A DNA stretch of 39,206 bases from an uncultured Lachnospiraceae bacterium (GTDB lineage: Bacteria > Bacillota > Clostridia > Lachnospirales > Lachnospiraceae), in NCBI GenBank assembly GCA_947627245.1, contig CANQVH010000032.1, forward strand, positions 1 through 39,206, given 5' to 3'. This document shows positions 11,672-35,386 of the stretch, piece by piece. Below the pieces are notes generated by a model that saw nothing but the letters and a program-made list of their open reading frames with translations, had not been told where the DNA came from and made no database searches. Numbering within the stretch: the first letter of the stretch is position 1; every line of letters begins with the position of its first letter. The translations under genes and the position numbers were made by a program.

Positions 11672-11733
11672 TTCTTTATCCCTTTCTTTGCAAATCTCTT
11701 CTTCATCCAAATTATGCTTATGCAGAACTTTTC

Positions 11734-11936
11734 CTCCGCATGTTCGCGCAAATTCCTTCCACGTCTTCACGTTCACGCAGATTCTTTCCACATTCGCACG
11801 CTCGCGCAAATTCCTTTCACATCTTCACGCTCACGCAGATTCTTTCCGCGTTCGAACGCGCACGCGAATTCCTTCCATGTCTGCACGCTCACGCAAATTT
11901 CTTCCATGTCCGCATGCTCACGCGAATTCCTTCCAT
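11734..11936 (-). repeat. 29-bp tandem repeat, seven copies
   Basis: Read on the minus strand from 11936, seven units of exactly 29 bases follow one another, each a variant of (A/G)TGGAAGGAATTYGCG plus GTGAGCRTGMRGAC. The first unit is the last codons and stop of the epimerase gene, whose C-terminal peptide TWKEFA is encoded there. A degenerate eighth unit may follow below 11734. The unit length is not a multiple of three, so each unit falls in a different frame. Every unit carries an SD-like GGAAGGA-type core. The array arose by serial duplication of the gene end and fills the gap before the glycosyltransferase. There are no spacers, so it is not CRISPR. Confidence 0.9.
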
Positions 11937-13003
11937 GTCTGCTTCATGCTCGCGAGCAGCCGGTCAAACATTTCCTTCAAATCTGCCTCTGGCTTCCAGC
12001 CGAGCATACGCAGCTTCTCCGCGTTTACCAGCATTCTCGAAGTCGGCGCGTAACCGAACCTTCCGGCGTCCTCCGGAATGTCGAACACCAGCCCTGAGCC
12101 GCTTTCCGGATACGCCCCGATCAGCATCTGTGCCATTTCCCGGATCGTCGAAAACGTCTCCTCATTCGAGACATTGTATGCCTCGCCGGGCGTCCCGTCG
12201 AGCAGCACCTTCAAGATCCCGCGCACCGCGTCCGCCGTGTAGCAATAGCAGTGCGCCTTGCTTCCGTCCGTGTGAAGCACGATGTCCTGTCCGGTAAGAA
12301 TGCTGCGCGCGAACTGCGCGAACACGCGATTCTCGCTCTCCGGAATCCCGGCGCCGAACGTCTGCGCCAGACGCACCGTCTTTACCGGCACCTGATATTC
12401 GTGCGCGTACGCCGCGCAAAGCCCCTCCGCCATACGCTTGCTCTCCGAATAGCTGCTGCGCGGCTGAAGCGGATCGATGTATCCGTAATCCGTCTCGCGG
12501 ACGTTCCAATGCTCTGCGTCCACAACCCCGTATGCCTCCATAGAGGAGAGATACACCATACCCCGCACCCGTTTCGCACGCGCCAGCTCAAGCAAATTTT
12601 CCGTCCCCTTTAACGCCGTCAGGATCGTCTCCACCGGGCGGTCCACAAAGTCTTTCGACGTCGTCACGCCCGCTCCGTGCACAATATAATCCACCTCCTG
12701 CGGCAGCTCGATCGGAGAAAGGATATCGCAAACCAGAATCTCAAGCCCCGCCTCCAGAAAAGTCGTAAACAACTGCTCTGCCTTCGCGCGGTTCCGCACC
12801 GCCGCGAGCACACGGATACCAAGACCGCGGTCTTCGCCCGCACAGATCAGCGCCCGTGCCAGAATACTCCCGATCAGCCCGGTCGCTCCCGTCACAAGCA
12901 CCGTCTTCCCTCTCAATTTTTCCCAATCGATCTCATCCGAAGCGGCGATCCTCTCCAGATCCCGCTGCAGGATCTCGTCTTCACACCATACTTTTTTGCT
13001 CAT
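11918..13003 (-). CDS. NAD-dependent epimerase/dehydratase (extended SDR)
   Basis: A 361-residue extended short-chain dehydrogenase. The NAD-binding GATGLIG is at residues 39-45, a serine of the catalytic set is in YLSSMEAYG (153-154) and the YxxxK motif is Tyr185-Lys189 (YSESK). These enzymes act on nucleotide sugars: epimerisation, dehydration or decarboxylation. The exact substrate is not readable. It follows the cytidylyltransferase by 25 bases with AAGGA before its ATG. The pairing of an IspD/TarI-type enzyme with an SDR in a polymer locus suggests a CDP-activated polyol or sugar. Its last codons are the first unit of the 29-bp array. Confidence 0.88.
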   Translation of the reverse strand: MSKKVWCEDEILQRDLERIAASDEIDWEKLRGKTVLVTGATGLIGSILARALICAGEDRGLGIRVLAAVRNRAKAEQLFTTFLEAGLEILVCDILSPIELPQEVDYIVHGAGVTTSKDFVDRPVETILTALKGTENLLELARAKRVRGMVYLSSMEAYGVVDAEHWNVRETDYGYIDPLQPRSSYSESKRMAEGLCAAYAHEYQVPVKTVRLAQTFGAGIPESENRVFAQFARSILTGQDIVLHTDGSKAHCYCYTADAVRGILKVLLDGTPGEAYNVSNEETFSTIREMAQMLIGAYPESGSGLVFDIPEDAGRFGYAPTSRMLVNAEKLRMLGWKPEADLKEMFDRLLASMKQTWKEFA

Positions 13004-13028
13004 AAGCCGATCCTTCGCCTCTTTCTTC

Positions 13029-13796
13029 TCACTCGCGGTAACGGTTCATCTTCGCCGCCAGCCGATCCGTCAGACCGAAGCCGAACGCCTGCTCGTTTTC
13101 CTTGTACTGCAAAAGCGCCCGGAAAATATAGACGTCCTCCGGCGTCGTCACCTTAATGTTGCCGCGATTGCCCAGCACTATGTGCGGCTGTCTCCCCAGC
13201 TCCCGGTAGATCGTGCATGCATCCACCATATTTTCATAGCCCGGATTGACTGTGCGGATCGACCGGTGCGCCTCCAGAATATCCTTCAGATAAAAGCTCT
13301 GCGGCGCCTGCGCTGCGTAGCTCTCCTTTCGCAGCGGCAGCTCGTCCACCTGCTGTCCGTCCCTGCTCACAAGGATCGTCTCATAACATGAAGTAGACGT
13401 GATCGCGCTCCCATACTCCCGAACGCTTTCGATGTTGCTGCTGATCACGCCATACTCGACGAACGGCCTCACGCCGTCGTGGATCAGCACGATCGAATCT
13501 CCGGGGTTCTCCTGCTCCGCTTTTTCCAGCGCATTGTAGATCGAATCCTGCGCCGTCGCCCCGCCCGGCACGACCGCCGCCACTTTATCGATCCGATAGT
13601 CCAACACCAACTGCTGCGTATAGCGGATGAAATCTCTGCTCATCGCCAGATAAATCTTGTCAATCTCCTCATGCTCCTGAAACAACTGCAGCGTATGGAT
13701 CAGGATCGGCTTGCCGTTGATCTCCAGAAACTGCTTCGGCACGCCCGCGCCCATGCGCACGCCGCTCCCTCCTGCAAAAATGATCGCAATGTTCAT
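13029..13796 (-). CDS. IspD/TarI-type cytidylyltransferase
   Basis: The start is the ATG at 13796 with GGAGG 4 bases ahead, giving 255 residues; the open frame continues further upstream without a signal. The enzyme couples CTP to a sugar- or polyol-phosphate. Motifs: AIIFAGGSGVRMGAGVPKQF (CTP-binding Gly-rich loop, Arg14 and Lys21), IHDGVRPF, and NIKVTTPEDVYIF near the end. The family contains both IspD (methylerythritol phosphate pathway) and TarI/Bcs1 (CDP-ribitol). The setting among teichoic-type export genes favours a TarI-like role, activating ribitol phosphate or a similar compound. The sequence alone does not exclude IspD. Confidence 0.88.
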   Translation of the reverse strand: MNIAIIFAGGSGVRMGAGVPKQFLEINGKPILIHTLQLFQEHEEIDKIYLAMSRDFIRYTQQLVLDYRIDKVAAVVPGGATAQDSIYNALEKAEQENPGDSIVLIHDGVRPFVEYGVISSNIESVREYGSAITSTSCYETILVSRDGQQVDELPLRKESYAAQAPQSFYLKDILEAHRSIRTVNPGYENMVDACTIYRELGRQPHIVLGNRGNIKVTTPEDVYIFRALLQYKENEQAFGFGLTDRLAAKMNRYRE

Positions 13797-13853
13797 ATGT
13801 CCTCCGTCGCCCTTATTCCTCTGACAAGGTTCCTCTGTCCGCGCCCGGCTCAA

Positions 13854-13905
13854 ATTGTCCCGGCGGTGCTTCTCTATAATCGTCCGGGCGGCGCTTCGCC
13901 GCTCA
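13854..13905 (-). repeat. GC-rich inverted repeat in the intergenic gap
   Basis: The 114-base gap between the glycerophosphotransferase stop and the cytidylyltransferase start contains GC-rich complementary words around 13886-13903 (GGCGGCG with CGCCGC across a 3-base loop). There is no T-run, so it is more likely an mRNA-stabilising or processing hairpin than a terminator. Confidence 0.4.
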
Positions 13906-13910
13906 CAAAT

Positions 13911-15170
13911 TCAACCGTTCAGGCCGACCAGCTTCAGGATGCGCTCCGTCGCATGCCCGTCGCACGCGCCGACATACTCCTCCCGGAACCGTTCAACCTC
14001 CTCGGGAACCGCGTTCTCCGACCCGTCCCGACCGCATGCCCCGACCGCGCGCGCAAGCGTTTCCTCCGTCTGCACGATCGGGTACGGTATCTTATGGTAA
14101 TCGATGTAAAATCCCCGTCCCGCCCCGTACTGCTCAAGATCCGGCGCAAACAGCACGATCGGTCTTTGGTAAAACAAGAAATCAAACATCACCGACGAGT
14201 AATCCGTGATCAGCAGATCCGCCACGGGAAGAAGCTCCTCGGTCGGTATGGCGCAGTTCGAGATCATCCCATGCGCATCGATGTGTGGATGCGCCTTGAT
14301 CACAAAATACCACTCTTCGGAAAGCGCTTCCGAGACCCGCCGCACTTCCTCCAAACCTTCCAGCCACGGCTTCGCCGCATTTCCGCGAAACGTCGGCGCC
14401 CAGAGCGCGATTTTTCTGCCGCGCGCCTGCGGGTACCGCTCCCGAAACGCCCTTCGGCATCTGTCGTTCCAGTCCTCGTCAAAATAATAATCCGTCCTGC
14501 TGACTCCGACCGCGCAGATCCGCTCCTGCGGAAGCCGAAGCGCCTGCGCGTGCACCGGCACACAGACCGGCGCGCTCAGAGTGAGATACGTATAATTTCC
14601 AAACATATCGCCGCGATATCCCTTGGGAATGTCGTCGCCCGCGTCATACGCGATCTTTTTCATCAGCCCGCAGGAATGCCACAGTTGTACCACCTTCGTC
14701 TCCGGACGTTTGCGGCAGGATGCGACCGGAAGATAGTAATCGCAGACAAACACATACTCTGCCGTCGCGTATTCCTTCATGAATCGCAGAAGGTAGCGCA
14801 GCAGCTCCATATACGGCATCTGCTCAAAATCCCGGACATACGCCGTGATCCGAAGCCGGCCTGCTTCCTGCCCGAACGTCTTCTCCGGCTCCCTGTTTCC
14901 CTGTCCGAACATCTTCTCTGACGCGCCATTTTCCTGCCCGAATATCTTCTCCGGTTTCCCGTTTCCCTGCCCGGGCGTCTTTTCCGACCCTGACGACCCG
15001 CCTGTCAGCGCCTCGTAGACCCTGCGCATCGAAAACGGGATCTCCTCGTGATGGGCGTCCGCGAAGATAACGCGGCTCTGCTCGACCGGCTTTCTCGCGT
15101 ACCATGCGTAAAAAAGCGGCAGGAGTATGTTCTGCAAAAACATTTTTAACAGTTGTTTTATCCGAAACAT
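13911..15170 (-). CDS. CDP-glycerol glycerophosphotransferase family protein (TagB/TagF-like)
   Basis: The ATG at 15170 has AAAGGA 7 bases ahead; 419 residues. Family members move glycerol or ribitol phosphate from the CDP donor to a lipid-linked teichoic-acid chain at the inner membrane face. An amphipathic or membrane-binding N-terminus (residues 1-25) fits that place. Key features are VVQLWHSCGLMKK, the IALWAPTFRGN block, IKAHPHID with the expected histidines, and TDYSSVMFDFLF. Between residues 63 and 106 there is a four-fold 11-residue repeat (EKxFGQxNGxx) not expected in the family. It begins 10 bases after the ABC-mutase fusion, in the same operon. Confidence 0.9.
   Translation of the reverse strand: MFRIKQLLKMFLQNILLPLFYAWYARKPVEQSRVIFADAHHEEIPFSMRRVYEALTGGSSGSEKTPGQGNGKPEKIFGQENGASEKMFGQGNREPEKTFGQEAGRLRITAYVRDFEQMPYMELLRYLLRFMKEYATAEYVFVCDYYLPVASCRKRPETKVVQLWHSCGLMKKIAYDAGDDIPKGYRGDMFGNYTYLTLSAPVCVPVHAQALRLPQERICAVGVSRTDYYFDEDWNDRCRRAFRERYPQARGRKIALWAPTFRGNAAKPWLEGLEEVRRVSEALSEEWYFVIKAHPHIDAHGMISNCAIPTEELLPVADLLITDYSSVMFDFLFYQRPIVLFAPDLEQYGAGRGFYIDYHKIPYPIVQTEETLARAVGACGRDGSENAVPEEVERFREEYVGACDGHATERILKLVGLNG
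14853..14984 (-). repeat. 33-bp in-frame tandem repeat, four copies
   Basis: Within the glycerophosphotransferase gene, four consecutive 11-residue units read EKTPGQGNGKP, EKIFGQENGAS, EKMFGQGNREP and EKTFGQEAGRL. Each is 33 bases, so copy-number change would keep the frame. The stretch is hydrophilic and lies between the membrane-binding N-terminus and the catalytic body. Confidence 0.88.
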
Positions 15171-15180
15171 ACTGATTCCT

Positions 15181-17097
15181 TTACTGTATCCAGATATGAA
15201 GCTCCTTCGCCGCGTCGGCAATCGCAGCCTCGATCACCTTGTCCATGTCATAATACCGGTAGGAGGCCAGCCGCCCGCCGAATATGACCTTCTTCTCCTG
15301 CTCCGCCAAAGCGCGGTACTTCTCGTAGAGCGCATTGTTCTTCTCGTCGTTGACCGGATAATACGGATCGATGCCCGGCTTCCACTCCATCGAGTATTCC
15401 CGTGAAATGATTGAGAAATCCTTGGGATTCTCCTGCTCCTCCTCCGGCTCAAAATGCTTGTGCTCGATCACCCTCGTGTACGGCACCTCGCGATCCGTGT
15501 AATTGATGACCGCGTTCCCCTGATAATTCGCTTCCTCCACGCGCTCTGTCTCAAAACGCACCGTGCGGTATTCCAGATGCCCGTAACAGAAATCAAAATA
15601 CTCGTCGATCATGCCGGTATAGACGACCTTCTTAAACATATCCGGATGCTCTTTGCGGTATTCAAAGAAATCCGTCTCCAACATGACATCGATGTTGTTC
15701 AGCAGCTTTTCCATCATCTTCGTATAGCCGCCGCGCGGGATTCCCTGATACAGATCGTTGAAATAATTGTTGTTGTACGTAAAGCGCAGCGGAAGCCTCC
15801 GGATAATGAACGCCGGAAGATCCTTGCAGTCTCTTCCCCACTGCTTCTCCGTATAGCCCTTGACCAGCTTCTCATAGACGTCCCGTCCTACCAGAGACAG
15901 CGCCTGTTCCTCGAGATTCTTCGGCTCTTCGATATGGAGATCCGCGATCTGCTCCGCGATCCTCGCCTGTACCTCCTGCGGCTTTTTCAGCCCCCAGAGC
16001 TTTGAGAACGTGTTCATATTGAACGGCAGGTTGTAGAGCTCGTCCTTGTAGACTGCCATCGGAGAATTGATGTAATTGTTAAATTCCGCGAAGCGGTTGA
16101 CATACTTCCAGATCTTTTTGTTGCTCGTGTGGAAAATATGCGCCCCGTACTTGTGAACCTGAATGCCGTCTACATCCTCCGTGTAGATATTTCCCCCGAT
16201 ATGGCTGCGCTTGTCGATCACCAGACAACGCTTGCCGCGCCTCGTGAGCTCCCGGGCAAACACCGCGCCGTACAGGCCGGCGCCGACGATCAGGTAATCG
16301 TATTTCTTCCCTTGTTTTCTGAGAAGCTCCCGCTTCTCCGCCTGTCTCTTCCGAAGCTGCTCCTCCTGCTCCTCGGCGTACGCGTCGCACACATCGGAAG
16401 CCGGTCCGACCATGCGGATCTTTCCCTCGTCCAGCCATACCGCGTACTGGCAGAGATTTCTCACCGACTCGATATTGTGCGAGACATAGAGAAGCGTCGT
16501 CCCGCCGGAAAGCATCCGCTGCATGCGCTCGTTGCACCTGCGGCGGAAACGCATGTCTCCCACCTCAAGAACCTCGTCCACCACGAGAATGTCCGGATTT
16601 ACAACCGTAGCGACCGCAAAGCCGAGACGGGCTTTCATGCCGGATGAAAAGTTTTTGACCGGGGAATCCAGAAACTGTTCGAGATTGGAGAATTCCACGA
16701 TCTCGTCAAAATGCTTCTCCATAAATTCTCTGGAATGCCCGAGCACCATGCCGTTGAGGTAAATATTCTCACGGGCGGTCAGCTCCGGATCGATCCCGGC
16801 GCCGAGCTCGATCAGCGGCGCAATGTGGCCGTTGACCTTCACCGTGCCCTCGTACGGCTGCAGGATCCCGCTGATTGTCTTCAAAAGCGTGGATTTTCCG
16901 GAGCCGTTGACCCCGACGAATCCCCACGACTCGCCTTTCTTGATCTTGAGGTTGATATCCTGAAGCGCTATGAACTCCTGAAACATCAGCTCATGCTTTA
17001 TAAGCTTGATCGCGTACTCCTTGAGGTTGTCCACTTTCTCGTTCGCAAGGTTAAAACGGATTTTTACATTTTCTACTTCTATTGCGTATTTAGCCAT
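15181..17097 (-). CDS. Fusion of TagH/Wzt-type ABC ATPase and UDP-galactopyranose mutase
   Basis: From the ATG at 17097 (GGAGG 5 bases ahead) one frame encodes 638 residues. Residues 1-240 are an ABC ATPase of the polysaccharide-export class: Walker A GVNGSGKST (62-70), signature FSSGMKAR (150-157), Walker B ILVVDEV (170-176) and the H-loop His207. A charged helical linker (about 241-264) follows. Residues 265-638 form a full-length UDP-galactopyranose mutase: FAD-binding DYLIVGAGLYGAVFARE, then SHIGGNIYTED, KYGAHIFHTSN and a C-terminal FGGRLASYRYYDMD. The mutase makes UDP-galactofuranose from UDP-galactopyranose with reduced FAD. No stop or ribosome binding site is seen at the junction. The permease partner is the gene just upstream. 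I know of these two only as separate proteins. Confidence 0.93.
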   Translation of the reverse strand: MAKYAIEVENVKIRFNLANEKVDNLKEYAIKLIKHELMFQEFIALQDINLKIKKGESWGFVGVNGSGKSTLLKTISGILQPYEGTVKVNGHIAPLIELGAGIDPELTARENIYLNGMVLGHSREFMEKHFDEIVEFSNLEQFLDSPVKNFSSGMKARLGFAVATVVNPDILVVDEVLEVGDMRFRRRCNERMQRMLSGGTTLLYVSHNIESVRNLCQYAVWLDEGKIRMVGPASDVCDAYAEEQEEQLRKRQAEKRELLRKQGKKYDYLIVGAGLYGAVFARELTRRGKRCLVIDKRSHIGGNIYTEDVDGIQVHKYGAHIFHTSNKKIWKYVNRFAEFNNYINSPMAVYKDELYNLPFNMNTFSKLWGLKKPQEVQARIAEQIADLHIEEPKNLEEQALSLVGRDVYEKLVKGYTEKQWGRDCKDLPAFIIRRLPLRFTYNNNYFNDLYQGIPRGGYTKMMEKLLNNIDVMLETDFFEYRKEHPDMFKKVVYTGMIDEYFDFCYGHLEYRTVRFETERVEEANYQGNAVINYTDREVPYTRVIEHKHFEPEEEQENPKDFSIISREYSMEWKPGIDPYYPVNDEKNNALYEKYRALAEQEKKVIFGGRLASYRYYDMDKVIEAAIADAAKELHIWIQ

Positions 17098-17127
17098 TCT
17101 TTCCTCCAAATGCTTTTTTTGTCATAA

Positions 17128-25812: not shown

Positions 25813-27699
25813 TTATCGACAATTCCGGCAGCGGTAGCTGGAATATTCCCCGAGATCCGTCACCACGATGCTGTGGCTCGTCCGCCGCTCGCTGACCGGA
25901 AGCATCTGCATGTAATCTCCATATAGCCATTTCAGATACTTGTCGTATTCCTTCGGCACGGGGAACTGATATCCCTCGAAGTCCACGTAAACCGCTTCGT
26001 CAAGCCATGCCTTTGGGAAGGGTCCCCGCTTCAGGTTGCGGCCCATTCCGTCGTACAGGTATTCGCTCTTCCTGTGCTGGAAGAACCGCAGCATCCTCTC
26101 CTGAAACCACTCCGCCCACGACATCGGGACAAGCTGTTTCAAATGGTTGAGCACCGCGCACACATGAGGATGCTTTCCGCCGCTTACGATATCCGTATTG
26201 CCCCACTTGCGGAACACAAGCGTGCGTCCCAGAATCGTCGCGTAGAGATGCACCTTTTGCGACCACTTATGGTTGGCGGTCTTGTCATGCGCTAAGATAT
26301 CAAAGAAAACTCCGTTGTGCATGTTCAGAAATTTCGCGGTGAACAGCGTCGAGAACATGGTATTGTTGATGCGCAGCTTCGCGAACGCGTTGTGGTTGCC
26401 CTTCTCCGTCGAGGGAATCTGCAGGAAAATATTGTCCGGGACCTCCTCCTGCACGATCTGCATAAAGCGGTCGTAATCTTCACGGAGCATCATCACGTCT
26501 GCGTCGTCATCCCACGGAATGAATCCGTGATGGCGGATCGCTCCGAGCAGCGTCCCTCCCGCCAGGAAGTATTTGATCCCGTGTTTTTTGCATATCCGGT
26601 CGATCTCCAGAAGGTAGCCGAGCAGAAGCTCCTGAACCGCCGTCAGTTTCCCCAGATACGTATTGTCGAAAATGAAGATACCCTCCTGCTCCTGCATGCT
26701 CTTGATGAGCATGATCAGCCCGTCCTCCAGCGTGACCTTGGGAAGACCCCTGGGAACACCCTTGGGGGTGGGCAAAGTCCTGATGATGAGCTGGGAATTC
26801 ATCAGAATCCCCGTATCTTCCTCTTTCTCTTTGTTCCACCGCAGCCCGATCCGGCATTGATCCGGAAAATTCCGGTACAGCATCGTAACCATCTCGCTCA
26901 TGGATGCGTCCGCTTCTTTTCCGACAATGTTGAAGATCTTGCTGGCCGGGCAGGCGCCCAGCATGAAATGCATCGCGGTCAGCACGTCGTGGATGCTGAC
27001 ATAGGAGCTCTGCTCTGCGCTGAAATCCAGCGTGTCGGCCCGGCCCTCCGCGACCGTGCGCGCCAGACGGTACGCGCCGTGCTCCATCACGTCGATATAT
27101 GCGCCGAGAATCAGCCCGGTGCGCAGAATATAGTATTTGACGCCGGCCTCCCGCGCGCAGCTTACCACGATACTTTCCAGCGTCTGCAGAAAATACTGCG
27201 CTTCATATCCGGCCGCGCACGGATTTGTCTCCCCGGCCTCATATTCGGACGCCGCAAACCCGTGGGGCAGACGCCCGTACACCCTGCCGTCGGACAGAAG
27301 AAGGATCTTTTCACATGCGTTTCCGATCGCCGTCCGCACAACATCCAGATAGCGCGTCAGAAAGTCTATCTCCTCCTCCGCAGTAAAAGAGATCTCCTTA
27401 CAGCAGAATCCCGGCAGAATGACATAGTTCGCCTCCTCCGGCGCAAAACGAGGTCCCGCGCAATGCTTGAGCTCTCCGTCCAGCGACATGCGCTCCACGC
27501 TTATTCCCGCCTTGCAGTTATCGTTCCACGCCTCAAAGGACCATGCCACCGCATCGCTCAGGGAATCCTTCCCGCCGATCAGCAGGACCTTTTTCCCCTT
27601 GATCTGATCTACGGTCACAAGCTCGGATCTGATAGCTGCCTGCGCCCAGTCCAGTTGAAACTCATTCAGCCGGTCTCGCAGCAACTTCTTTTTTGCCAT
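25813..27699 (-). CDS. Degenerate SDR domain fused to a LicD-family phosphotransferase
   Basis: A 628-residue protein. Residues about 34-330 follow the fold of extended SDR epimerases (LLIGG strand, LLLSDGRVYG, ILRTGLILGAY, VSIHDVLTAMHFML). The Gly-rich NAD motif is broken and the YxxxK motif is missing (Tyr165 is followed by no Lys at +4), so redox catalysis is doubtful. Residues 352-628 are LicD: IDRICKKHGIKYFLAGGTLL, then HHGFIPWDDDADV with the metal-binding Asp cluster. LicD enzymes attach phosphocholine or related phosphodiester groups, or ribitol phosphate, to surface glycans. AGGCGGAG precedes the ATG. It is 24 bases after another degenerate SDR gene. Confidence 0.88.
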   Translation of the reverse strand: MAKKKLLRDRLNEFQLDWAQAAIRSELVTVDQIKGKKVLLIGGKDSLSDAVAWSFEAWNDNCKAGISVERMSLDGELKHCAGPRFAPEEANYVILPGFCCKEISFTAEEEIDFLTRYLDVVRTAIGNACEKILLLSDGRVYGRLPHGFAASEYEAGETNPCAAGYEAQYFLQTLESIVVSCAREAGVKYYILRTGLILGAYIDVMEHGAYRLARTVAEGRADTLDFSAEQSSYVSIHDVLTAMHFMLGACPASKIFNIVGKEADASMSEMVTMLYRNFPDQCRIGLRWNKEKEEDTGILMNSQLIIRTLPTPKGVPRGLPKVTLEDGLIMLIKSMQEQEGIFIFDNTYLGKLTAVQELLLGYLLEIDRICKKHGIKYFLAGGTLLGAIRHHGFIPWDDDADVMMLREDYDRFMQIVQEEVPDNIFLQIPSTEKGNHNAFAKLRINNTMFSTLFTAKFLNMHNGVFFDILAHDKTANHKWSQKVHLYATILGRTLVFRKWGNTDIVSGGKHPHVCAVLNHLKQLVPMSWAEWFQERMLRFFQHRKSEYLYDGMGRNLKRGPFPKAWLDEAVYVDFEGYQFPVPKEYDKYLKWLYGDYMQMLPVSERRTSHSIVVTDLGEYSSYRCRNCR

Positions 27700-27723
27700 T
27701 TTGTCTCCGCCTTTCTTTTTCTG

Positions 27724-28476
27724 TCACAGACTTTTTATCTTTGTCAGCTCTTCCACCACGATATTGGGCGACAGCGGCGATAGCTTTTCCGCCTTCCCGG
27801 GTATCTGTCGGGGACCCGGAATGTTGTACGGCTCTCCCGCCGTGCCGAAGATCAGCACCCGCAAAAGGCTTCCCGCCATATCGGGTATACCGTCCAAAGA
27901 ATCTCCGTCTCCCTGCAGCGGGCTTTGGATCCGCGCAACGCGGATGTTGATCCCGTCCTCCCGCGCCAGACGTCCGCACAGATGCTCCGCCACTCTCAGC
28001 GACTGGGCTTCCTGGAAATCCTCGTCGGTGTGGCACAGATAGCCGATCTCATCTTCACGGACCGAATGCGGCTCTCCGAACAGCTTACCATAGACCGTGC
28101 TGTCCGACACGAAGGCCACGGCTGCCGGCTTCGCACCTCGGATGCCCTGAAGCGTATCGGTCAGCGTCCGGAACTCCATCCAGCTTCCGAGGTATTCTCC
28201 CTTTCCTTTTTTTTCTCTGATCCACGAATATTTCTGCGTTTCCCGCTTTTGCGCCTGCTTCGGCGCGGCCGCCGCGGTTCCCATCAGTATCACGTAATCC
28301 TCCGGCGCGATCTCTCCCTGCGCCGAAACCTCAAACCGGGCTTCCGTCTGCCGGCTCATCTTTTTCAGTTCTTCCATAAGGGACGTTTTTATCTCTGACT
28401 CACGGCCCAGCACCAGAATGCGCCGTCCCTGAAGACGGTCGAGAACATCCTGTCCGCAAATCGGCTCTTCGCGCAT
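27724..28476 (-). CDS. Degenerate SDR-like protein
   Basis: A 250-residue protein similar in layout to the N-terminal half of its downstream neighbour: RILVLGRESEIK in place of the Gly-rich nucleotide loop, then AFVSDSTVYGKLFGE, RVAEHLCGRLARE and INIRVARIQSPLQGD. The YxxxK motif is lacking. It probably descends from the same SDR gene by duplication and may serve as a structural or binding partner, not as an oxidoreductase. GGAGGAGTG stands before the ATG at 28476. It is the first gene behind the promoter at 28536-28564. Confidence 0.75.
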   Translation of the reverse strand: MREEPICGQDVLDRLQGRRILVLGRESEIKTSLMEELKKMSRQTEARFEVSAQGEIAPEDYVILMGTAAAAPKQAQKRETQKYSWIREKKGKGEYLGSWMEFRTLTDTLQGIRGAKPAAVAFVSDSTVYGKLFGEPHSVREDEIGYLCHTDEDFQEAQSLRVAEHLCGRLAREDGINIRVARIQSPLQGDGDSLDGIPDMAGSLLRVLIFGTAGEPYNIPGPRQIPGKAEKLSPLSPNIVVEELTKIKSL

Positions 28477-28535
28477 AACGCACTCCTCCGTTCTAATATG
28501 GTTGTGTCCTTATCAATCAGGCAATATTGTAAAAC

Positions 28536-28564
28536 AGTGTATCATATCTGTTTTTCCTTGTCAA
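28536..28564 (-). promoter_or_regulatory. Promoter of the SDR / LicD operon
   Basis: Minus-strand TTGACA (28559-28564), 17 bases, TACACT (28536-28541), 60 bases before the SDR start. The opposite strand leads into the sulfation genes: a doubled GGTATA word lies on the plus strand at about 28640-28660, with no clear -35/-10 pair for cysD. Confidence 0.8.
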
Positions 28565-28701
28565 AAATAACCTTTTTTTATTTACATACTTTTGAAAAAA
28601 TGTTATGCTAAAGGAAATTTTCTTTTTTGCATCACAATCTATCGGTATACTGGTATATCTTTATGATGCAATCAACACTGGATAAGGAGTTTGTGACGAC
28701 A

Positions 28702-29595
28702 ATGACTCATCTCGACAAATTAGAAGCAGAAGCGATCTATATCATGCGTGAAGTTGCGGCCGAGTGCGAAAAGCCGGTCATGCTCTATTCGATCGGCAAA
28801 GACTCCTCCGTCATGCTGCGTCTCGCGCTGAAGGCGTTCTATCCGGAGAAGCCGCCTTTCCCCTTTCTCCACGTAAATACCACATGGAAATTCCGGGAAA
28901 TGATCGAATTCCGGGATCAGATCGCAAAGAAATACGGCATCACCATGCTCGAATACATCAATCAGGACGGCGTCGCTCAGGGCATCAATCCGTTCGATCA
29001 CGGCGCGGCCTATACGGATATCATGAAGACGCAGGCGCTGAAACAGGCGCTTGACAAATACGGTTTCACTGCCGCGTTCGGCGGCGGAAGACGGGACGAG
29101 GAAAAGTCCCGCGCCAAGGAGCGCATCTTCTCCTTCCGCAACGCGAGCCACGCATGGGATCCCAAGAATCAGCGCCCGGAGATGTGGAAGCTCTACAATA
29201 CCCAGATCCATCAGGGCGAGGAAATCCGCGTCTTCCCGCTGTCCAACTGGACCGAGGCCGATATCTGGCAGTACATCCGTCAGGAGCAGATCGAGATCGT
29301 TCCTCTGTACTTTGCCAAGGAACGCCCCTTCGTCCGGCGGAACGGCAATATCATCATGGTCGACGACGACCGCATGCGCCTGAAGGAAGGCGAAGTCATT
29401 GAGCACGGCATGATCCGTTTCCGGACGCTCGGCTGCTATCCGCTGACCGGCGGCATCGAAAGCACGGCCGACACGCTTGACGCGATCGTCGAGGAAACGC
29501 TCGGCGCGGTCTCCTCGGAGCGGACAAGCCGCGTGATCGACAGCGACGGCGGAAGCGCCAGTATGGAAAAGAGAAAGAAGGAGGGCTATTTTTAA
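28702..29595 (+). CDS. cysD: Sulfate adenylyltransferase subunit 2
   Basis: 297 residues from the ATG at 28702 ([20 protein letters not shown]), near the 302 of E. coli CysD. Upstream in-frame starts exist, but the family begins here; AAGGAG lies 12 bases ahead, a long spacing, and a GTG at 28693 is an alternative. CysD is the catalytic PP-loop subunit of ATP sulfurylase, which makes adenosine 5'-phosphosulfate from ATP and sulfate. The PP-loop is [34 protein letters not shown] and [11 protein letters not shown] are textbook CysD. Two bases separate its stop from cysNC. No reductase genes (cysH, cysI, cysJ) lie nearby. Confidence 0.96.
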
Positions 29596-29597
29596 TC

Positions 29598-31457
29598 ATG
29601 AACAGTCTTCTTAAATTTATTACCTGCGGCAGTGTGGACGACGGAAAATCCACGCTGATCGGACATCTGCTCTACGATGCGAAGCTTCTCTTCGCCGATC
29701 AGGAGCAGGCATTGTATCTTGACAGCAAGGTGGGCTCCCGCGGCGGCGCCATCGATTATTCCCTTCTGCTTGACGGACTGATGGCCGAGCGCGAGCAGGG
29801 CATCACGATCGATGTGGCGTACCGCTATTTCACGACGGAAAAGCGTTCTTTCATCGTCGCCGATACGCCGGGACACGAGGAGTATACGCGAAATATGGCG
29901 GTAGGCGCTTCCTTCGCGGATCTCGCTGTGATCCTTGTGGACGCCACGCACGGCGTTCTCGTACAGACACGGCGCCACACGCGCATCTGCTCCATGATGG
30001 GGATCCGGCACTTCGTCTTTGCCGTCAACAAGATGGATCTGATCAACTACGACGAGAGCCGTTTCGAGAAGATTTCCCGGGACATCCGCCGCATGATGTC
30101 GGAGCACGATTTTGAGACCATGAAGATCCTTCCCGTCTCCGCGACGGAAGGCGACAATATCACACAGAAGTCCAGCCACATGCTGTGGTACAGAGGCGTC
30201 TCCCTGCTGACCTACCTTGAGAACATCGACATCCATGAAGCGGAAGACGACGCGGGCTTTGCGATGCCCGTACAGAGAGTCTGCCGTCCGGACCGCACGT
30301 TCCGCGGTTTTCAGGGGCAGATCGAGTCCGGCGCTTTGAAGGTCGGGGATGAGATCACGACGCTCCCCTCCAACGAAAAAGCGATTGTCAGCCGAATCAT
30401 CGACGCCGGGAAGGACGTCGACTCCTCCGAGCGCGGCCACGCGGTCACGATCTCTCTCGACCGCGAAGTGGACGTCTCCAGAGGCTGCGTGCTCGTGAAG
30501 GATTACCATCCCTACGTCGGTACTCTTTTCACCGCGCGTCTTCTGTGGATGGACGACAACGCCCTCATCGCAGGGAAGAACTACTATCTGAAGCTCGGCA
30601 CGCGCCTGATCCCCGCCATCGTGATGAACATCAATCACAAGATCGATGTGAACACCGGCAACGAGATCCCGGCGGACGCCACCTTCAAGAATGAGATCGT
30701 AGAATGCGATCTTTCCGTCTCGGACAAGATCGTCTTTGATAAATTTGCCGGCAATCAGGCGCTCGGTTCGCTGATCCTGATCGACCGTGTCACAAATATG
30801 ACGTCGGCCTGCGGCGTTGTCCTGCGCAGCATTCAGCGCTCGAACAATCTGACGTGGCAGAAGCTCGACGTTACGAGAGAGTTCCGCGCCGCCCAGAAGG
30901 GGCAGACCCCCTTCACCGTCTGGATGACCGGACTGTCCGGCGCAGGAAAATCCGTCGTATCCAACGAGCTCGAGAAGCGTCTCGTCTCCCTCGGCATGCA
31001 TACAATGCTTCTGGATGGCGATAATATCCGTATGGGCCTGAACCGAAACCTCGGCTTCAAGGAATCGGACCGCATCGAAAACATTCGCCGTATCGCCGAG
31101 GTATCCAAGCTGATGAACGACGCGGGGCTGATCGTTATCACCGCGTTTATCTCTCCGTACGCCCGTGACCGGCAGATTGCGAAGGATATTATCGGCTCGG
31201 ATTCCTTTGTGGAGGTCTATGTGAGCACGCCGCTGGAGGAATGCGAACGGCGCGACATCAAAGGTCTTTATATGAAAGCGCGCAGGGGCGAGATCTCGGA
31301 TTTCACGGGAATCTCAAGTCCTTATGAGGTTCCGCAGCACGCGGACATTTCCATCGATACGACTTCTCTGGATCCGGAGAAATGTGTTGACCGCATCTGG
31401 AGCGCGCTTATCGAGCGTTTCCCGCAACTGAAGCATTTCACGGAAGAGACGAACTGA
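29598..31457 (+). CDS. cysNC: Bifunctional sulfate adenylyltransferase subunit 1 / APS kinase
   Basis: A 619-residue CysN-CysC fusion. The GTPase part has GSVDDGKSTLIGHLL (G1), DTPGHEEYTRNM (G3) and NKMDL (G4), and drives ATP sulfurylase. The kinase part begins near residue 435 with WMTGLSGAGKS, and has DGDNIRMGLNRNLGF and ITAFISPYARDR; it phosphorylates APS to PAPS. Making PAPS in the same chain channels sulfate toward sulfotransferases or PAPS reductase. GGAGGG at the end of cysD serves as its ribosome binding site. Only 19 bases separate it from the first sulfotransferase gene, which favours the sulfotransferase fate. Confidence 0.96.
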   Translation: MNSLLKFITCGSVDDGKSTLIGHLLYDAKLLFADQEQALYLDSKVGSRGGAIDYSLLLDGLMAEREQGITIDVAYRYFTTEKRSFIVADTPGHEEYTRNMAVGASFADLAVILVDATHGVLVQTRRHTRICSMMGIRHFVFAVNKMDLINYDESRFEKISRDIRRMMSEHDFETMKILPVSATEGDNITQKSSHMLWYRGVSLLTYLENIDIHEAEDDAGFAMPVQRVCRPDRTFRGFQGQIESGALKVGDEITTLPSNEKAIVSRIIDAGKDVDSSERGHAVTISLDREVDVSRGCVLVKDYHPYVGTLFTARLLWMDDNALIAGKNYYLKLGTRLIPAIVMNINHKIDVNTGNEIPADATFKNEIVECDLSVSDKIVFDKFAGNQALGSLILIDRVTNMTSACGVVLRSIQRSNNLTWQKLDVTREFRAAQKGQTPFTVWMTGLSGAGKSVVSNELEKRLVSLGMHTMLLDGDNIRMGLNRNLGFKESDRIENIRRIAEVSKLMNDAGLIVITAFISPYARDRQIAKDIIGSDSFVEVYVSTPLEECERRDIKGLYMKARRGEISDFTGISSPYEVPQHADISIDTTSLDPEKCVDRIWSALIERFPQLKHFTEETN

Positions 31458-31476
31458 CATTTTACAGGAGGATAAC

Positions 31477-32688
31477 ATGGCGACCGTTTATCTGCACATC
31501 GGTCCCCCGAAGACCGGAACGACCGCAATCCAGAATTTTTTAGAAAAGAACAAAGAGGCGCTGGAGAAAAACGGCGCCTGTTTCCCTGATTTCAACTTGC
31601 GCTATATCCGACCCGATCATTATTTCAAGGTCGCATATGTCCGGAACGCGCACTTTCTCGTCAAGTCATGGAAGAGCATTCTCACCGACAAGCCGAACGC
31701 GACTTATCTGTCGGTGCTTGAGCAGCTCGGAGAGCTCGGCAAAAAATACGACAAGATCATCCTCTCGGACGAATCGCTCTGGATTTTCGGCGACAAGCAT
31801 CGGGAGGGTTGGTTCGTCCTGAAAAATGATCTCGAGAAAAAGGGCCTGAAGCTCTGCGTCATCGCCTACCTCAGACGGCAGGACAGTTTTGCCCTGTCCT
31901 ACTACCGCCAGATGGTCCGGGTCGCGATCACGGAGCTTACCTTTGACGAGTACTGGGAAACGCTCCAGAGGAAATATCCGCTGGATTATTATGCCTATAT
32001 CGAATATCTGGCCGGCGTCATCGGAAAAGAAAACGTCTTCTTCCGCGTCTTTGAAAGAGGGCAATTCCGTGGAGAGGAACACAATATTTATTCCGATTTT
32101 CTTGAGATCCTCGGTCTTTCCCTGAAGGACGGCTTTATTCTGGATAAAGAGATCTATAATACCGCTCCGGACGATTCTCTGCTCGAGCTGCGGCGCACGC
32201 TCAATCATCTTCCCAATCCGGACCGCTACAACCAACTGCTGATGAACGGCTACCGGGCGATCCTGCGGGACCGCGCGGAGGAGAGGCCCCCGAAGACCTC
32301 CTTCTTCCGCCCCGGAGAGCAGACTGCGTACCTTGAGAGCTTCTCGGAGTCCAACAGCCGCTTTGCCCGGGAATATCTCGGGAGAGAGGACGGGACGCTT
32401 TTCTACGATGAATCGGACACGGAGCTCCCGGAGTACCGGGTCATCACGGAGGATCTGCTGCGCGATACCATTCTCTACTATGCTAAGGTCGCAGAGCTCC
32501 TCGAAAAAGAAAACAACAAGCTCCGCGAGGAGTTTGAAGAGGTCCGCAAATACTCGCCGATGTATCAGTGGCATATAAAATACCAGAAGATGCGCAAATC
32601 CCTTCTGGCGTTTCTCGACCGTATCGGCCTGAAAGAACCTCTCAGACACCTTCTCGGCAGAGACCGCAAGAAGTCAAAAAAGAAATGA
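31477..32688 (+). CDS. PAPS-dependent sulfotransferase family protein (first copy)
   Basis: A 403-residue protein. The N-terminus MATVYLHIGPPKTGTTAIQN carries the 5'-phosphosulfate-binding loop PKTGTT (11-16). A second block YLRRQDSFALSYYRQ fits the 3'-phosphate-binding Arg...Ser motif. It ends in a short coiled coil (LLEKENNKLREEFEEV) and a basic tail. There is no signal peptide, so it acts in the cytoplasm on an intracellular or lipid-linked acceptor. The acceptor cannot be read from sequence. AGGAGG stands 6 bases before the ATG. It is nearly a twin of the gene at 34129 (ESNSRFAREYLGREDG is shared). Confidence 0.88.
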   Translation: MATVYLHIGPPKTGTTAIQNFLEKNKEALEKNGACFPDFNLRYIRPDHYFKVAYVRNAHFLVKSWKSILTDKPNATYLSVLEQLGELGKKYDKIILSDESLWIFGDKHREGWFVLKNDLEKKGLKLCVIAYLRRQDSFALSYYRQMVRVAITELTFDEYWETLQRKYPLDYYAYIEYLAGVIGKENVFFRVFERGQFRGEEHNIYSDFLEILGLSLKDGFILDKEIYNTAPDDSLLELRRTLNHLPNPDRYNQLLMNGYRAILRDRAEERPPKTSFFRPGEQTAYLESFSESNSRFAREYLGREDGTLFYDESDTELPEYRVITEDLLRDTILYYAKVAELLEKENNKLREEFEEVRKYSPMYQWHIKYQKMRKSLLAFLDRIGLKEPLRHLLGRDRKKSKKK

Positions 32689-32698
32689 TCGCAGACAT

Positions 32699-34018
32699 AT
32701 GAAAACACACAAACTCACTTCCGTCACCGGCAATATGCTGAAGATCGGACTTATCGGATTCGGAGGCGGCACCGCGCTGATCCCCGTTTTGGAAAAAGAG
32801 CTGGTCGGTCGCTCCAAAATCGTCTCCGAAGAGACCTTCAACCGCGACGTCACGATCGCCAGCATTACGCCCGGCGCGCTTCCCGTGGAAATCGCTGCGG
32901 GCATCGGCAAGGAAGCGGCAGGAAACGCCGGCATGATCGCCGCCGCGGCCGCTATGGCATTCCCCGGCGCGTTTTTGACGCTTCTTCTGCTCCTGTTATT
33001 TTCCGGAATGAACAGCACGCTGCGCGATTTCATCAACATTCTCGCAGCAGCAGTCTCCGTCTATATTATCGTGCTGCTTCTGCGATACGTAGCCGGCACA
33101 CTGAAGCAGTCCTCCACAGACCGCGAGAAGCTTCTTTATCTTCTCGTCATTCTTTCTGTCTTTGTGCTCTCGGCGGAAAAAAATCTTTACCGGCTCCTTG
33201 GGACGTCGCGTAAGCCTCTGTTCGCCGCTTCTTCCGTACAGATCCTCGCCGCGGCTTTCTTTGTAATCCTCTTTACAAAGGGAGAGCTTCGCAGGCTCAA
33301 GCGGACGATGCCGGCTTTGCTTCTCACTCTTGTATACTTTCTGTGCGCCGGCGACGCGCAGATTCTCCCAGCCGGCTTGGTTCCTTTTTTGACCGTATTG
33401 ATGATCGTTCTGGCCGCTCTGGGATTTTTTCAGTCTGTCCGCGAGGCTAAGGCCAAAAGCCCTTCCGGATCGGAGCAAAAGGATTGTTTCTCGGGGCTCG
33501 GCCTTCTTCGGACTATGTTCTTCTGGCTTTTGTTTTTGCTCGTTCTGTCTCTGCCCGCCATCCTGCTGACGGTCAAAAGCCTCTCCTTCATCGGGACAGG
33601 CGTCCTCTCCTCCGTCATGTCATTTGGCGGAGGCGACGCGTACCTCACCGTGGCTCAGGGACTGTTCGTCGAGAGCGGAATGATCAGCCGCGCCGATTTT
33701 TACAGCAATATCGTGACCGTGGCAAACGCCCTTCCCGGATCCATCCTCTGCAAGATCCTGACCGGCGTGGGCTACTCTCTCGGCTATCATTTGCATAATT
33801 CCGTTCCGGAGGGAATTATGATGGCCGTATGCGGCTTTGCCTGCAGCGTCGCGGCCTCCGGTTCCATTTATCTCATCGTATGGGGACTTTTTCAAAAATA
33901 CGGAGATTTGCGTATCTTCGCAACGATTCGGCATTTTATCCGGCCTATTGTATCCGGCCTGCTTTTGAATGTTGCGCTCACTCTTTTCCTCTCCGTCATC
34001 TGTCCCGTTGTTTTTTGA
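32699..34018 (+). CDS. CHR-family (ChrA-type) anion transporter
   Basis: A 439-residue membrane protein with duplicated CHR domains. The first half has IGLIGFGGGTALIPVLEKEL and ITPGALPVEIAAGIGKEAAG, the second SVMSFGGGDAYLTVAQGL and VANALPGSILCKILTG. Known CHR proteins export chromate and are thought to exchange it with sulfate or related oxyanions. Here the gene lies between two sulfotransferases and behind the PAPS genes, so sulfate uptake, or exchange of a by-product anion, is a reasonable guess. It begins 11 bases after the first sulfotransferase stop and has no clear ribosome binding site, so it is probably coupled in translation. Confidence 0.88.
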   Translation: MKTHKLTSVTGNMLKIGLIGFGGGTALIPVLEKELVGRSKIVSEETFNRDVTIASITPGALPVEIAAGIGKEAAGNAGMIAAAAAMAFPGAFLTLLLLLLFSGMNSTLRDFINILAAAVSVYIIVLLLRYVAGTLKQSSTDREKLLYLLVILSVFVLSAEKNLYRLLGTSRKPLFAASSVQILAAAFFVILFTKGELRRLKRTMPALLLTLVYFLCAGDAQILPAGLVPFLTVLMIVLAALGFFQSVREAKAKSPSGSEQKDCFSGLGLLRTMFFWLLFLLVLSLPAILLTVKSLSFIGTGVLSSVMSFGGGDAYLTVAQGLFVESGMISRADFYSNIVTVANALPGSILCKILTGVGYSLGYHLHNSVPEGIMMAVCGFACSVAASGSIYLIVWGLFQKYGDLRIFATIRHFIRPIVSGLLLNVALTLFLSVICPVVF

Positions 34019-34128
34019 AGAATATTCCGGATAAAATATAGGATCTGACGTATTTTCTTCACATTCCGTCTATATACTATCCGTATCTTTTAAAAAGGGA
34101 GTATATTTTACAGTAAGGGGAAAATTTT

Positions 34129-35343
34129 ATGGCGACTGTTTATCTTCACATCGGTCTTCCAAAGACCGGGACCACTGCAATTCAGCATTTTTTGTGGGAC
34201 AACACACCTGTTCTGGGCAAAAACGGCATCTGTTATCCGGACTTTGACGTGCGGTATCCTCACGTCATGTTTCTTCGGAACGCGCATTTTCTGATCGCCT
34301 CCTGCAAAAAGGCGGACGACAGCGACCAGCTTGTCACAGACGAGAACTACACGCGATTCATGGATCAGATCGCCGAGCTCGGCACGCACTACGACCGCAT
34401 CTTCCTTTCGGAAGAAGCGCTCTGGTCCGCCAAGAGGAATCAGCATGCGTTCTGGGAAAAGATCAGGACAGATTTCGAAAAGCGCGGGTTGTCTCTATGC
34501 ATCATCGTGTACCTGAGACGGCAGGATACTTTTGTCCAGTCCCTGTACCGACAGAAGGTCAAGGCTCGGCTTACCGATCTTCCGTTCAATGACTTTCTGA
34601 GCGTTTCTATGAAATCCTATCCGCTGGATTACTATTCTTATCTCAAGAGGCTGGCTGATGCTCTGGGCAAGGAAAACCTGATCATCCGGGTCTATGAGAA
34701 AGAGCAGTATCACGGAAAGGAACACGATCTTTTTTCGGATTTCCTTGATATTTTCGGATTGTCCGTCGGCGACGGATTCACCATCGGTCAGGCAGCTCTG
34801 AACCTGCCGCTCGACAACTCCAAGCATGAGCTGAGGCGTCTTCTCAACAAGGCCTCCGATCCGAGAGCAGGAAACACGATCCTGACGCAGAGCTTCCGGG
34901 ATATCCGTTCCTACGCGGCGAACGGAGAGAACGGCTATGGGGATGTCTCGTTTTTCCGTCCGGGTGAGCAGGCTGCCTATCTTGAGAGCTTCGCCGAATC
35001 AAACAGCCGGGTCGCAAGGGAATTTCTCGGCCGGGAGGACGGCGTACTTTTCCGGGAAACCGCGGACAAAATACTTCCGGAATATCAGGTGGACAACGAC
35101 GCCTTGCTGAAGGATACGATTTTGCTGTATGCAAGGTCGATCCTGCACCTCGAAGAAGAGTGCCGCGCGCTACGGCAGGAGCTGCAGAATGTTCGCTCCG
35201 AGCTGCGCGACGTCCGGGAAAATGTTGTCCTGTACCGCCTGAAAAGAAAGCTTCGGCACGTATCGGGCAGCGACGAACCGAATACGGACGCGGACACAGA
35301 TGCAGACGCGGATACGGACGCAGATGCAGAAGATATTTCATAA
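34129..35343 (+). CDS. PAPS-dependent sulfotransferase family protein (second copy)
   Basis: A 404-residue paralogue of the gene at 31477. MATVYLHIGLPKTGTTAIQH carries the phosphosulfate loop; YLRRQDTFVQSLYRQ is the second motif; FRPGEQAAYLESFAESNSR is nearly the same in both. The middle parts differ (for example EEALWSAKRNQHAFWEKI), so the acceptors may differ. It ends in an acidic tail of Thr, Asp and Ala (positions 35281-35340) built from short repeats, absent from the first copy. AAGGGG stands 9 bases before the ATG. A terminator follows directly. Confidence 0.88.
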   Translation: MATVYLHIGLPKTGTTAIQHFLWDNTPVLGKNGICYPDFDVRYPHVMFLRNAHFLIASCKKADDSDQLVTDENYTRFMDQIAELGTHYDRIFLSEEALWSAKRNQHAFWEKIRTDFEKRGLSLCIIVYLRRQDTFVQSLYRQKVKARLTDLPFNDFLSVSMKSYPLDYYSYLKRLADALGKENLIIRVYEKEQYHGKEHDLFSDFLDIFGLSVGDGFTIGQAALNLPLDNSKHELRRLLNKASDPRAGNTILTQSFRDIRSYAANGENGYGDVSFFRPGEQAAYLESFAESNSRVAREFLGREDGVLFRETADKILPEYQVDNDALLKDTILLYARSILHLEEECRALRQELQNVRSELRDVRENVVLYRLKRKLRHVSGSDEPNTDADTDADADTDADAEDIS

Positions 35344-35351
35344 AATAAAGG

Positions 35352-35386
35352 GGTCAGGACATCCGGAAATGTCCTGACCTCTTTTT
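35352..35386 (+). terminator. Terminator of the sulfation operon
   Basis: GGTCAGGACAT (35352-35362) pairs with ATGTCCTGACC (35369-35379) over 6 bases and is followed by TCTTTTT. It begins 9 bases after the second sulfotransferase stop. It could also serve the convergent aconitase-type gene. Confidence 0.92.

Follow-up and report, generated by a model that had tools for sequence, protein, structure and literature searches.

The window analysed here is the whole of contig C32 (CANQVH010000032.1, GenBank assembly GCA_947627245.1), a stretch of 39,206 nucleotides from an uncultured Lachnospiraceae bacterium. The genome bin that holds it comprises 3.84 Mb on 151 contigs and is 97% complete and 7% contaminated; the nearest named relatives of the contig are Lachnospiraceae, matching the expectation for its bin. 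The window carries a five-gene operon that joins genes for the sulfuryl donor 3'-phosphoadenosine 5'-phosphosulfate (PAPS), made via adenosine 5'-phosphosulfate (APS), to two predicted sulfotransferases, ST1 and ST2, and a membrane transporter, CHR. The operon and its borders are as follows.

28477..28701, no strand: divergent intergenic region with sigma-70-like sites on both strands
28702..29595, + strand: cysD, ATP sulfurylase small subunit, 297 aa (TIGR02039 and NF009214 over cut-off)
29598..31457, + strand: cysNC, ATP sulfurylase GTPase subunit fused to APS kinase, 619 aa (NF004035, TIGR00455, PF00009, PF01583)
31477..32688, + strand: ST1, predicted sulfotransferase, 403 aa (motifs HIGPPKTGTT and YLRRQD....S; profile match to PF00685-type proteins; hydropathy)
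32699..34018, + strand: membrane transporter of the CHR (chromate/sulfate) family, 439 aa (PF02417; many hydrophobic segments)
34129..35343, + strand: ST2, paralogue of ST1 and predicted sulfotransferase, 404 aa (BLASTP; PF00685 at E 0.0032, below cut-off)
35352..35379, no strand: terminator-like stem common to the operon and a convergent aconitase gene

All five genes lie on the + strand and are open, with zero internal stops. The cysD start is the ATG at 28702 with AAGGAG upstream, and an alternative ATG lies at 28663. The gaps from cysD through cysNC, ST1 and CHR to ST2 are 2, 19, 10 and 110 bases; the gene order and three of the gaps agree with the initial annotation, whose third gap of 11 bases was wrong. 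The single terminator it had placed at the operon end corresponds to a 12-pair stem between ST2 and the convergent aconitase gene, which the terminator scan assigns to the - strand and which has a T-run on the + side, noted by eye. In the divergent region, sigma-70-like sites were found on the + strand at 28581-28609 and on the - strand at 28564-28536, the total of 8 such sites in 28477-28701 being not above chance (shuffle mean 7.5). A search against Rfam gave zero matches.

CysD scored 478.4 bits against TIGR02039 (cut-off 396.6) and 506.9 bits against NF009214, also over cut-off. CysNC scored 832.4 bits against NF004035 (cut-off 715), its APS kinase part scored 234.9 bits against TIGR00455 apsK (cut-off 138.7), and in Pfam it matched PF00009 and PF01583. 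Since both proteins pass curated cut-offs, the APS kinase domain included, PAPS synthesis by CysD and CysNC is secure at the level of protein family, as first annotated.

ST1 and ST2 share 46% identity (BLASTP) and neither shows a hydrophobic segment by hydropathy. Inspection of their sequences revealed a first motif of the 5'-phosphosulfate loop (5'-PSB) type, HIGPPKTGTT in ST1 and HIGLPKTGTT in ST2, in which the shape PKxGTT/S replaces Walker A, and ST1 has a second motif, YLRRQD....S, with an arginine and a serine of the 3'-PSB type; the names 5'-PSB and 3'-PSB, and the residue spacing relative to SULT, follow common usage. The motifs were counted in 103 ST relatives of 330-500 residues from 79 named loci, collected without a motif filter. 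T13, R133, E99, Q19, N25 and N293 were each found in all 103, K12 and S141 in 102, and G14 in 82, with Ala at this position in the other 21. This conservation arises partly by construction, because the loci were recruited with two patterns covering parts of both motifs. The 21 relatives with KTA for KTG in the first motif (L053-L131) make up a subgroup worth separating.

Comparison of the ST family with six PF00685-type proteins by hhalign gave an E-value of 2.4e-6 and a probability of 89% over 205 columns including both motifs, versus an E-value of 0.41 for a control set of kinases, made up of four APS kinase domains and a cytidylate kinase-like protein. The six proteins came from neighbouring genomes; two were positive by Pfam scan and the others were their homologues. 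In addition, a Paracoccus yeei homologue, retrieved with ST1 by tblastn at E 4e-6, passes PF00685 with 25.1 against 22 bits; the Gloeothece and Leisingera homologues pass no sulfotransferase cut-off. Motifs, profile comparison, the homologue passing PF00685 and gene context together suggest that ST1 and ST2 are very likely sulfotransferases. The initial annotation had called two sulfotransferases; the curated Pfam and NCBIfam profiles fail to recognise them, and we judged the motifs, the hhalign result and the PF00685-positive homologue to be weightier. A search with the ST profile across the phylum found, besides the genome studied here, only distant matches in 3 of 397 genomes, which all belong to a single other genus. 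One of these ST-like proteins (L241, L242 and L243) is 659 residues long and has additional sequence at its C-terminus.

The survey of 299 genomes of the family ties the ST family to PAPS synthesis (Fisher p-values here ignore kinship). The ST family occurs in 16 genomes, cysD in 55 and the sulfite-reductase domain PF01077 in 146, although PF01077 proteins of 860-890 residues may be something other than sulfite reductases. All 16 ST genomes have cysD (2e-13) and 15 of them a fused cysNC (3e-16); the sixteenth, G171, has at locus L048 a lone cysC-type frame, a short CHR frame, ST, TagD and a TagF-type frame, all on one strand. A simple association between the ST family and absence of sulfite reductase was tried and fails, since PF01077 proteins are present in 10 of these 16 genomes (Fisher p 0.31, 299 genomes); the separation of sulfation from sulfite reduction is visible between cysD loci only. 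A total of 59 cysD loci were compared, 50 surveyed anew and 9 already known with an adjoining ST. The fusion was present at 30 and not seen at 29, among which L174 and L199 are truncated by contig ends; in L211 cysC is a separate gene. Within the stretches examined, a sulfite-reductase gene lay near none of the 30 fused loci versus 10 of the 29 others. The fused loci contain the ST family in 11 cases, another sulfotransferase type in 5 (three of these Pfam-tested and used as model seeds), CysQ-like genes in 8 and CHR in 7. These 59-locus counts therefore place fused cysNC with sulfation genes and unfused cysN with sulfite reductase, with many fused loci lacking a visible partner.

No PF01077 match was found in the 97% complete genome, window included, in a search that was positive in 11 of 14 control genomes. 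Within the window PF01507 matches cysD alone, in agreement with the earlier statement that the window lacks PAPS and sulfite reductase genes. Elsewhere in the genome, PF01507 matched a BrxP-like defence protein, a 446-residue protein and a fragment at a contig end that might derive from a reductase-like gene. The gene for the BrxP-like member of the PAPS-reductase family (L002, contig C115) is of the defence type and could be confused with cysH. That PAPS is made for sulfation and not for assimilation, as first proposed, is borne out by the genome without PF01077 and by the association of the cysNC fusion with ST; a complete assimilatory pathway drawing on this cysD and cysNC was not found, the genome having no PF01077 match. 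PAPS-dependent sulfation is considered highly probable.

The transporter encoded between ST1 and ST2, assigned to the CHR family from the start, scored 127.6 bits against PF02417 (Chromate_transp; cut-off 28.6) and stays below the NCBIfam chromate efflux cut-offs. We propose that it is probably a sulfate importer. The alternative that CHR exports an anion such as excess sulfate or chromate, and is no supply route, concerns this one part and is compatible with the rest of the explanation. It draws on the reputation of the family, best known for chromate efflux (PF02417 and NCBIfam names), and on a second CHR, a two-gene pair on contig C95. However, CHR sits inside the PAPS-sulfotransferase gene run, and the genome has no clear SulP-type transporter (in a search that did not extend to sulfate ABC or CysP-type transporters); the lone weak PF00916 match lies in a short frame, itself unscanned, that continues a PF00860 permease frame. 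Export by CHR is therefore considered rather unlikely.

The likely acceptor of the sulfuryl group is suggested by genes near the operon, in the window and in its relatives. The initial annotation had noted divergent genes for short-chain dehydrogenase/reductase (SDR) and LicD proteins and, within 15 kb, a polymer exporter, and both are present. The features concerned are the following.

27724..28476, - strand: SDR-like protein, 250 aa, without Pfam match; adjoins the operon in L053 and L058 too
25813..27699, - strand: SDR-like protein fused to a LicD phosphotransferase domain, 628 aa (PF04991, 145.2 bits); also in L053 and L058
17128..17919, - strand: membrane subunit of an ABC-2 polymer exporter (PF01061, 70.8 bits)
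15181..17109, - strand: ABC exporter ATPase fused to UDP-galactopyranose mutase (GLF; PF00005, PF03275)
13911..15221, - strand: TagF/TarL-type CDP-glycerol (or ribitol) glycerophosphotransferase (PF04464, 174.2 bits)
13029..13853, - strand: IspD/TarI-type cytidylyltransferase (PF01128, 158.9 bits)
11918..13003, - strand: NAD-dependent epimerase/dehydratase (PF01370, 141.7 bits)
10679..11809, - strand: family 2 glycosyltransferase, GT2 (PF00535, 102 bits)

The polymer genes, from GT2 through the epimerase, TarI-type, TagF-type and ABC-GLF genes to the ABC-2 membrane protein, span 10679-17919, at least 10.8 kb from cysD. In several close relatives TagF-type genes lie nearer to cysD. Loci L054, L056, L058 and L064 encode, directly upstream of cysD and on the same strand, a protein 873-912 residues long whose C-terminal domain is a CDP-glycerol glycerophosphotransferase; L054 further carries TagD and another TagF-type gene, both on the strand of cysD. 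In L061 and L063 such a TagF-type protein lies on the strand opposite to cysD within a TagF-TagD-TagF run, and in L057 a TagF-type gene is found about 3 kb upstream of cysD, past two opposite-strand genes. The PF04464-type calls were Pfam-tested in L054 and L056 and made by a home-made model in the other loci (a home-made GT2 model found a single protein and was left unused). TagF-type genes were seen at 18 of 79 ST loci (1332 kb), against 1 of the 50 cysD loci (637 kb) and none of 19 arbitrary regions taken from ten ST genomes (294 kb). The counts are not independent, because 7 of the 18 are the close relatives listed above and 4 of the 9 orphan cases (L070, L071, L080 and L087) resemble one another. 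Five STs stand in a row at L112, adjoining TagF- and TarI-type genes.

The 79 ST loci of named relatives, taken from the best 80 of 446 confirmed stretches, comprise 43 with cysD or cysN in view and 36 orphan loci without either, L055 and L077 of the latter ending at contig ends. Cultured carriers among them include Bacterium 1XD42-54 (L063) and Clostridium oryzae DSM 28571 (L110). Pfam families were tallied for 116 neighbours at 34 of the 36 orphan loci, with at most four neighbours each and proteins above 1200 residues dropped. The glycan-side families were Glyphos_transf (7), PS_pyruv_trans (6) and Glycos_transf_1 (4); other families were Response_reg (10), CTP_synth_N (7) and Ribosomal_L10 (6). 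In a control tally of 115 proteins from 19 regions, none of these three glycan-side families was among the first 25 families listed, and Polysacc_synt_2 and GDP_Man_Dehyd appeared twice each. Distant homologues came from 18 plasmid records, of which three were looked at (Gloeothece, Leisingera and Paracoccus). The Gloeothece and Leisingera homologues (25-26% identity, annotated as hypothetical) lie among glycosyltransferases and ABC transporters, the latter together with three annotated sulfotransferases and a UDP-galactopyranose mutase. The setting is thus a polysaccharide cluster in two of the three, the Paracoccus homologue lying in no clear cluster.

The site in front of aconitase and murA adds a further line of evidence. 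Between L056 or L064 and the window, MurA is 97%, aconitase 96-97%, CysD 95-96% and CysNC 86-90% identical, and at the same site the one ST of L056 and the four STs of L064 are 41-51% identical to ST1 or ST2. L053 compared with the window shows 88% identity for ST1 and 64% for ST2. In a tree of 67 STs, ST1 and ST2 fall with their counterparts in L053, the single ST of L056 and three STs of L064 into a supported group of eight that has long inner branches; the fourth L064 ST is placed elsewhere. These comparisons point mainly to STs that duplicated and diverged rapidly at this site, together with some exchange, around a constant donor module. Such a pattern is as expected of a surface structure under diversifying pressure, and near-constant PAPS enzymes next to fast-diverging STs between close relatives suggest a varied pattern of cell-surface sulfation.

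Taken together, a surface glycopolymer is a likely acceptor, most likely a capsular polymer or one containing glycerol or ribitol phosphate; the narrower assignment to a teichoic-type polymer is quite possible, if short of probable. The sulfated surface polymer suggested by the initial annotation is strengthened by the TagF and TagD genes of relatives and the homologues in polysaccharide clusters, and it remains a proposal. The module might instead sulfate a small molecule or lipid (a sterol, bile acid, phenol or glycolipid). In gut Bacteroides, PAPS genes and a sulfotransferase serve steroid sulfation, the operon and the polymer genes of the window form separate transcription units, and the Paracoccus homologue lies outside any clear polysaccharide cluster. 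However, up to five STs in a row near TagF- and TarI-type genes, PF04464 and TagD genes adjoining cysD in relatives, distant homologues within polysaccharide clusters and the fast diversification of STs at a fixed site all argue against such a substrate, which we regard as improbable.

We propose that the operon is a dedicated module for sulfation of a surface glycopolymer, possibly of teichoic type, with a probability of about 0.72. Sulfate would enter the cell, probably via CHR. By family assignment, CysD and the GTPase half of CysNC make APS, which the APS kinase half turns into PAPS. The soluble ST1 and ST2 would then transfer the sulfuryl group of PAPS to two different hydroxyls or sugars of the glycopolymer at the cytoplasmic side of the membrane. 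Export of the polymer would follow, probably through the ABC exporter whose genes lie about 11 kb away. Sulfation before ABC export fits, since PAPS is cytosolic and ST1 and ST2 have no hydrophobic segment. The left-over 3'-phosphoadenosine 5'-phosphate would probably be removed by an NrnA-type DHH phosphoesterase; this is proposed because a search of the genome for PF00459 proteins of the CysQ type found none. An NrnA-like DHH/DHHA1 protein is present.

Several observations weigh against this proposal. The TagF-type gene of the window is 13.5 kb from cysD in a separate transcription unit. The genome-level absences hold only if C32 belongs to its bin, because the bin is 7% contaminated. Among the named relatives, CHR is seen at 16 of 79 ST loci, many of which end at contig ends, many orphan ST loci adjoin housekeeping genes, and at one locus of the 79, L128, a gene resembling sulfite reductase lies about 5 kb from cysNC. 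At 14 of the 30 fused cysNC loci, the home-made models found no sulfotransferase in the stretch examined. Furthermore, no Pfam or NCBIfam model matches ST1 or ST2 at cut-off, and in the better of two structure models (67 sequences, pLDDT 92.8), P-loop kinases and GTPases lead the Foldseek matches, with no match at E < 0.001 and no sulfotransferase among the 50 matches listed of 681.

These last results would suit ST1 and ST2 being other P-loop enzymes, for example kinases, that neighbour the PAPS genes by chance. The nearest model for ST2 is Sulfotransfer_1 (PF00685), at E 0.0032 and 17.4 bits against a cut-off of 22. The ST family resembles Sulfotransfer_1 in its nucleotide-binding motifs and by distant profile similarity, and differs in that 6 of 67 aligned members reach E 0.01 against it, ST1 being among the 61 that fail. 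The ST family matches 13 NCBIfam families, none of them a sulfotransferase. Sequence searches of the PDB with ST1 and ST2 gave nothing at cut-off, the sulfotransferase 3rnl appearing at E 0.31 after an unrelated protein at 0.025. The ST family is thus without a model in the current Pfam and NCBIfam libraries, and the sulfotransferase label needs other evidence because no model matches at cut-off. A missing curated-profile match marks a divergent family and reflects a library threshold, not a biochemical feature. The weaker structure model (13 sequences, pLDDT 86) had 3rnl as its top Foldseek match (E 1.5e-4), so that fold comparison indicates a P-loop enzyme and is ambiguous on sulfotransferase identity. 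Against chance neighbours stand the sulfotransferase-type motifs where Walker A would be, the preference of hhalign for PF00685-type proteins over kinases, the homologue matching PF00685 and the presence of the APS-kinase fusion in 15 of the 16 ST genomes, making this alternative very improbable. The least probable of all, assimilatory or dissimilatory sulfate reduction fed by the operon, has in its favour that CysD and CysN start assimilation as well, that the ST genomes with a PF01077 protein include the same-genus G152, and the L128 gene, and it was rejected on the absence of PF01077 from this genome and on the locus survey, in which the APS-kinase fusion pairs with ST and unfused cysN with sulfite reductase and in which G103, G286 and G295 (the last with two other frames between cysD and cysNC) each have one cysD copy of each kind.

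Dedicated PAPS synthesis beside a sulfotransferase has known precedents. Rhizobial NodPQ-NodH combines a dedicated PAPS module, including a cysNC-type fusion, with a sulfotransferase, as in the window, and differs in its acceptor, a lipochitooligosaccharide signal. The same logic is known from marine Gram-negative capsules. The capsule operon of Cobetia marina KMM 1449 contains a bifunctional cysN/cysC, cysD and a sulfate permease (PMC11766843). Like the window, it combines these with sulfotransferases and ABC export, and its polymer bears both sulfate and glycerol phosphate. Unlike the window, it belongs to a Gram-negative marine bacterium, includes cysQ and a named sulfate permease, and serves a Kps/Kdo-type capsule (PMC11766843). 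Vibrio sp. KMM 8419 similarly has a second copy of cysD, cysN and cysC together with sulfotransferases in a polysaccharide cluster; it is Gram-negative, its sulfotransferases were recognised by annotation programs, and the extract of the paper does not mention CHR (PMC11641403). The xss cluster for synechan in Synechocystis shares with the window two sulfotransferase genes in a surface polysaccharide cluster, the product having about two sulfates per eight sugars, and differs in belonging to a cyanobacterium with Wzx/Wzy export; PAPS is not mentioned in the paper (PMC8205485). A Gram-positive example is wps-1 of Actinoplanes missouriensis, an exopolysaccharide cluster with two sulfotransferase genes; unlike the window it comes from an actinomycete and has known sulfotransferase domains, the sulfated product is a proposal, and PAPS goes unmentioned in the paper (PMC13390465). 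Sulfated polysaccharides are called rare in bacteria in two of these sources (PMC8205485, PMC13390465).

In the open-licence literature, no description of sulfated teichoic acids was found, nor, among the titles and abstract openings listed, of a cysD-cysNC-ST-CHR sulfation system in Lachnospiraceae or Bacillota, which is no proof of absence. The ST enzyme family and the Lachnospiraceae setting look new.

Some further features of the window deserve mention. ST2 ends in a repetitive Asp-Ala-Asp-Thr tail. The two consecutive SDR-like proteins at 25813-28476 (- strand), one fused to LicD and the other without Pfam match, adjoin the divergent region, and the latter (27724-28476) is a possible partner in surface polymer modification. 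The single reading frame for an ABC exporter ATPase and UDP-galactopyranose mutase (15181-17109, - strand) is an unusual-looking fusion. Near the polymer genes, a coupling protein of a type IV secretion system (PF02534; 18983-20302, - strand) and a ClpP-like protease recognised by eye (21136-21732, - strand) are a possible remnant of a conjugative element.

A bolder version of the proposal would be that gut Lachnospiraceae sulfate a teichoic-type polymer through an ST family for which no model exists, that the STs diversify rapidly at one site beside a constant PAPS module, and that sulfation acts as a variable surface antigen, perhaps mimicking sulfated host mucin; as a whole we hold this to be speculative and on balance doubtful. 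If the main proposal is true, common gut Bacillota would be sulfating their own surface while living amid abundant sulfated mucin. It further offers a function that can be tested for an enzyme family left "hypothetical" by automatic annotation. Moreover, a fused cysNC without a nearby sulfite reductase is a marker that may split sulfation from assimilation when gut sulfur metabolism is deduced from genomes.

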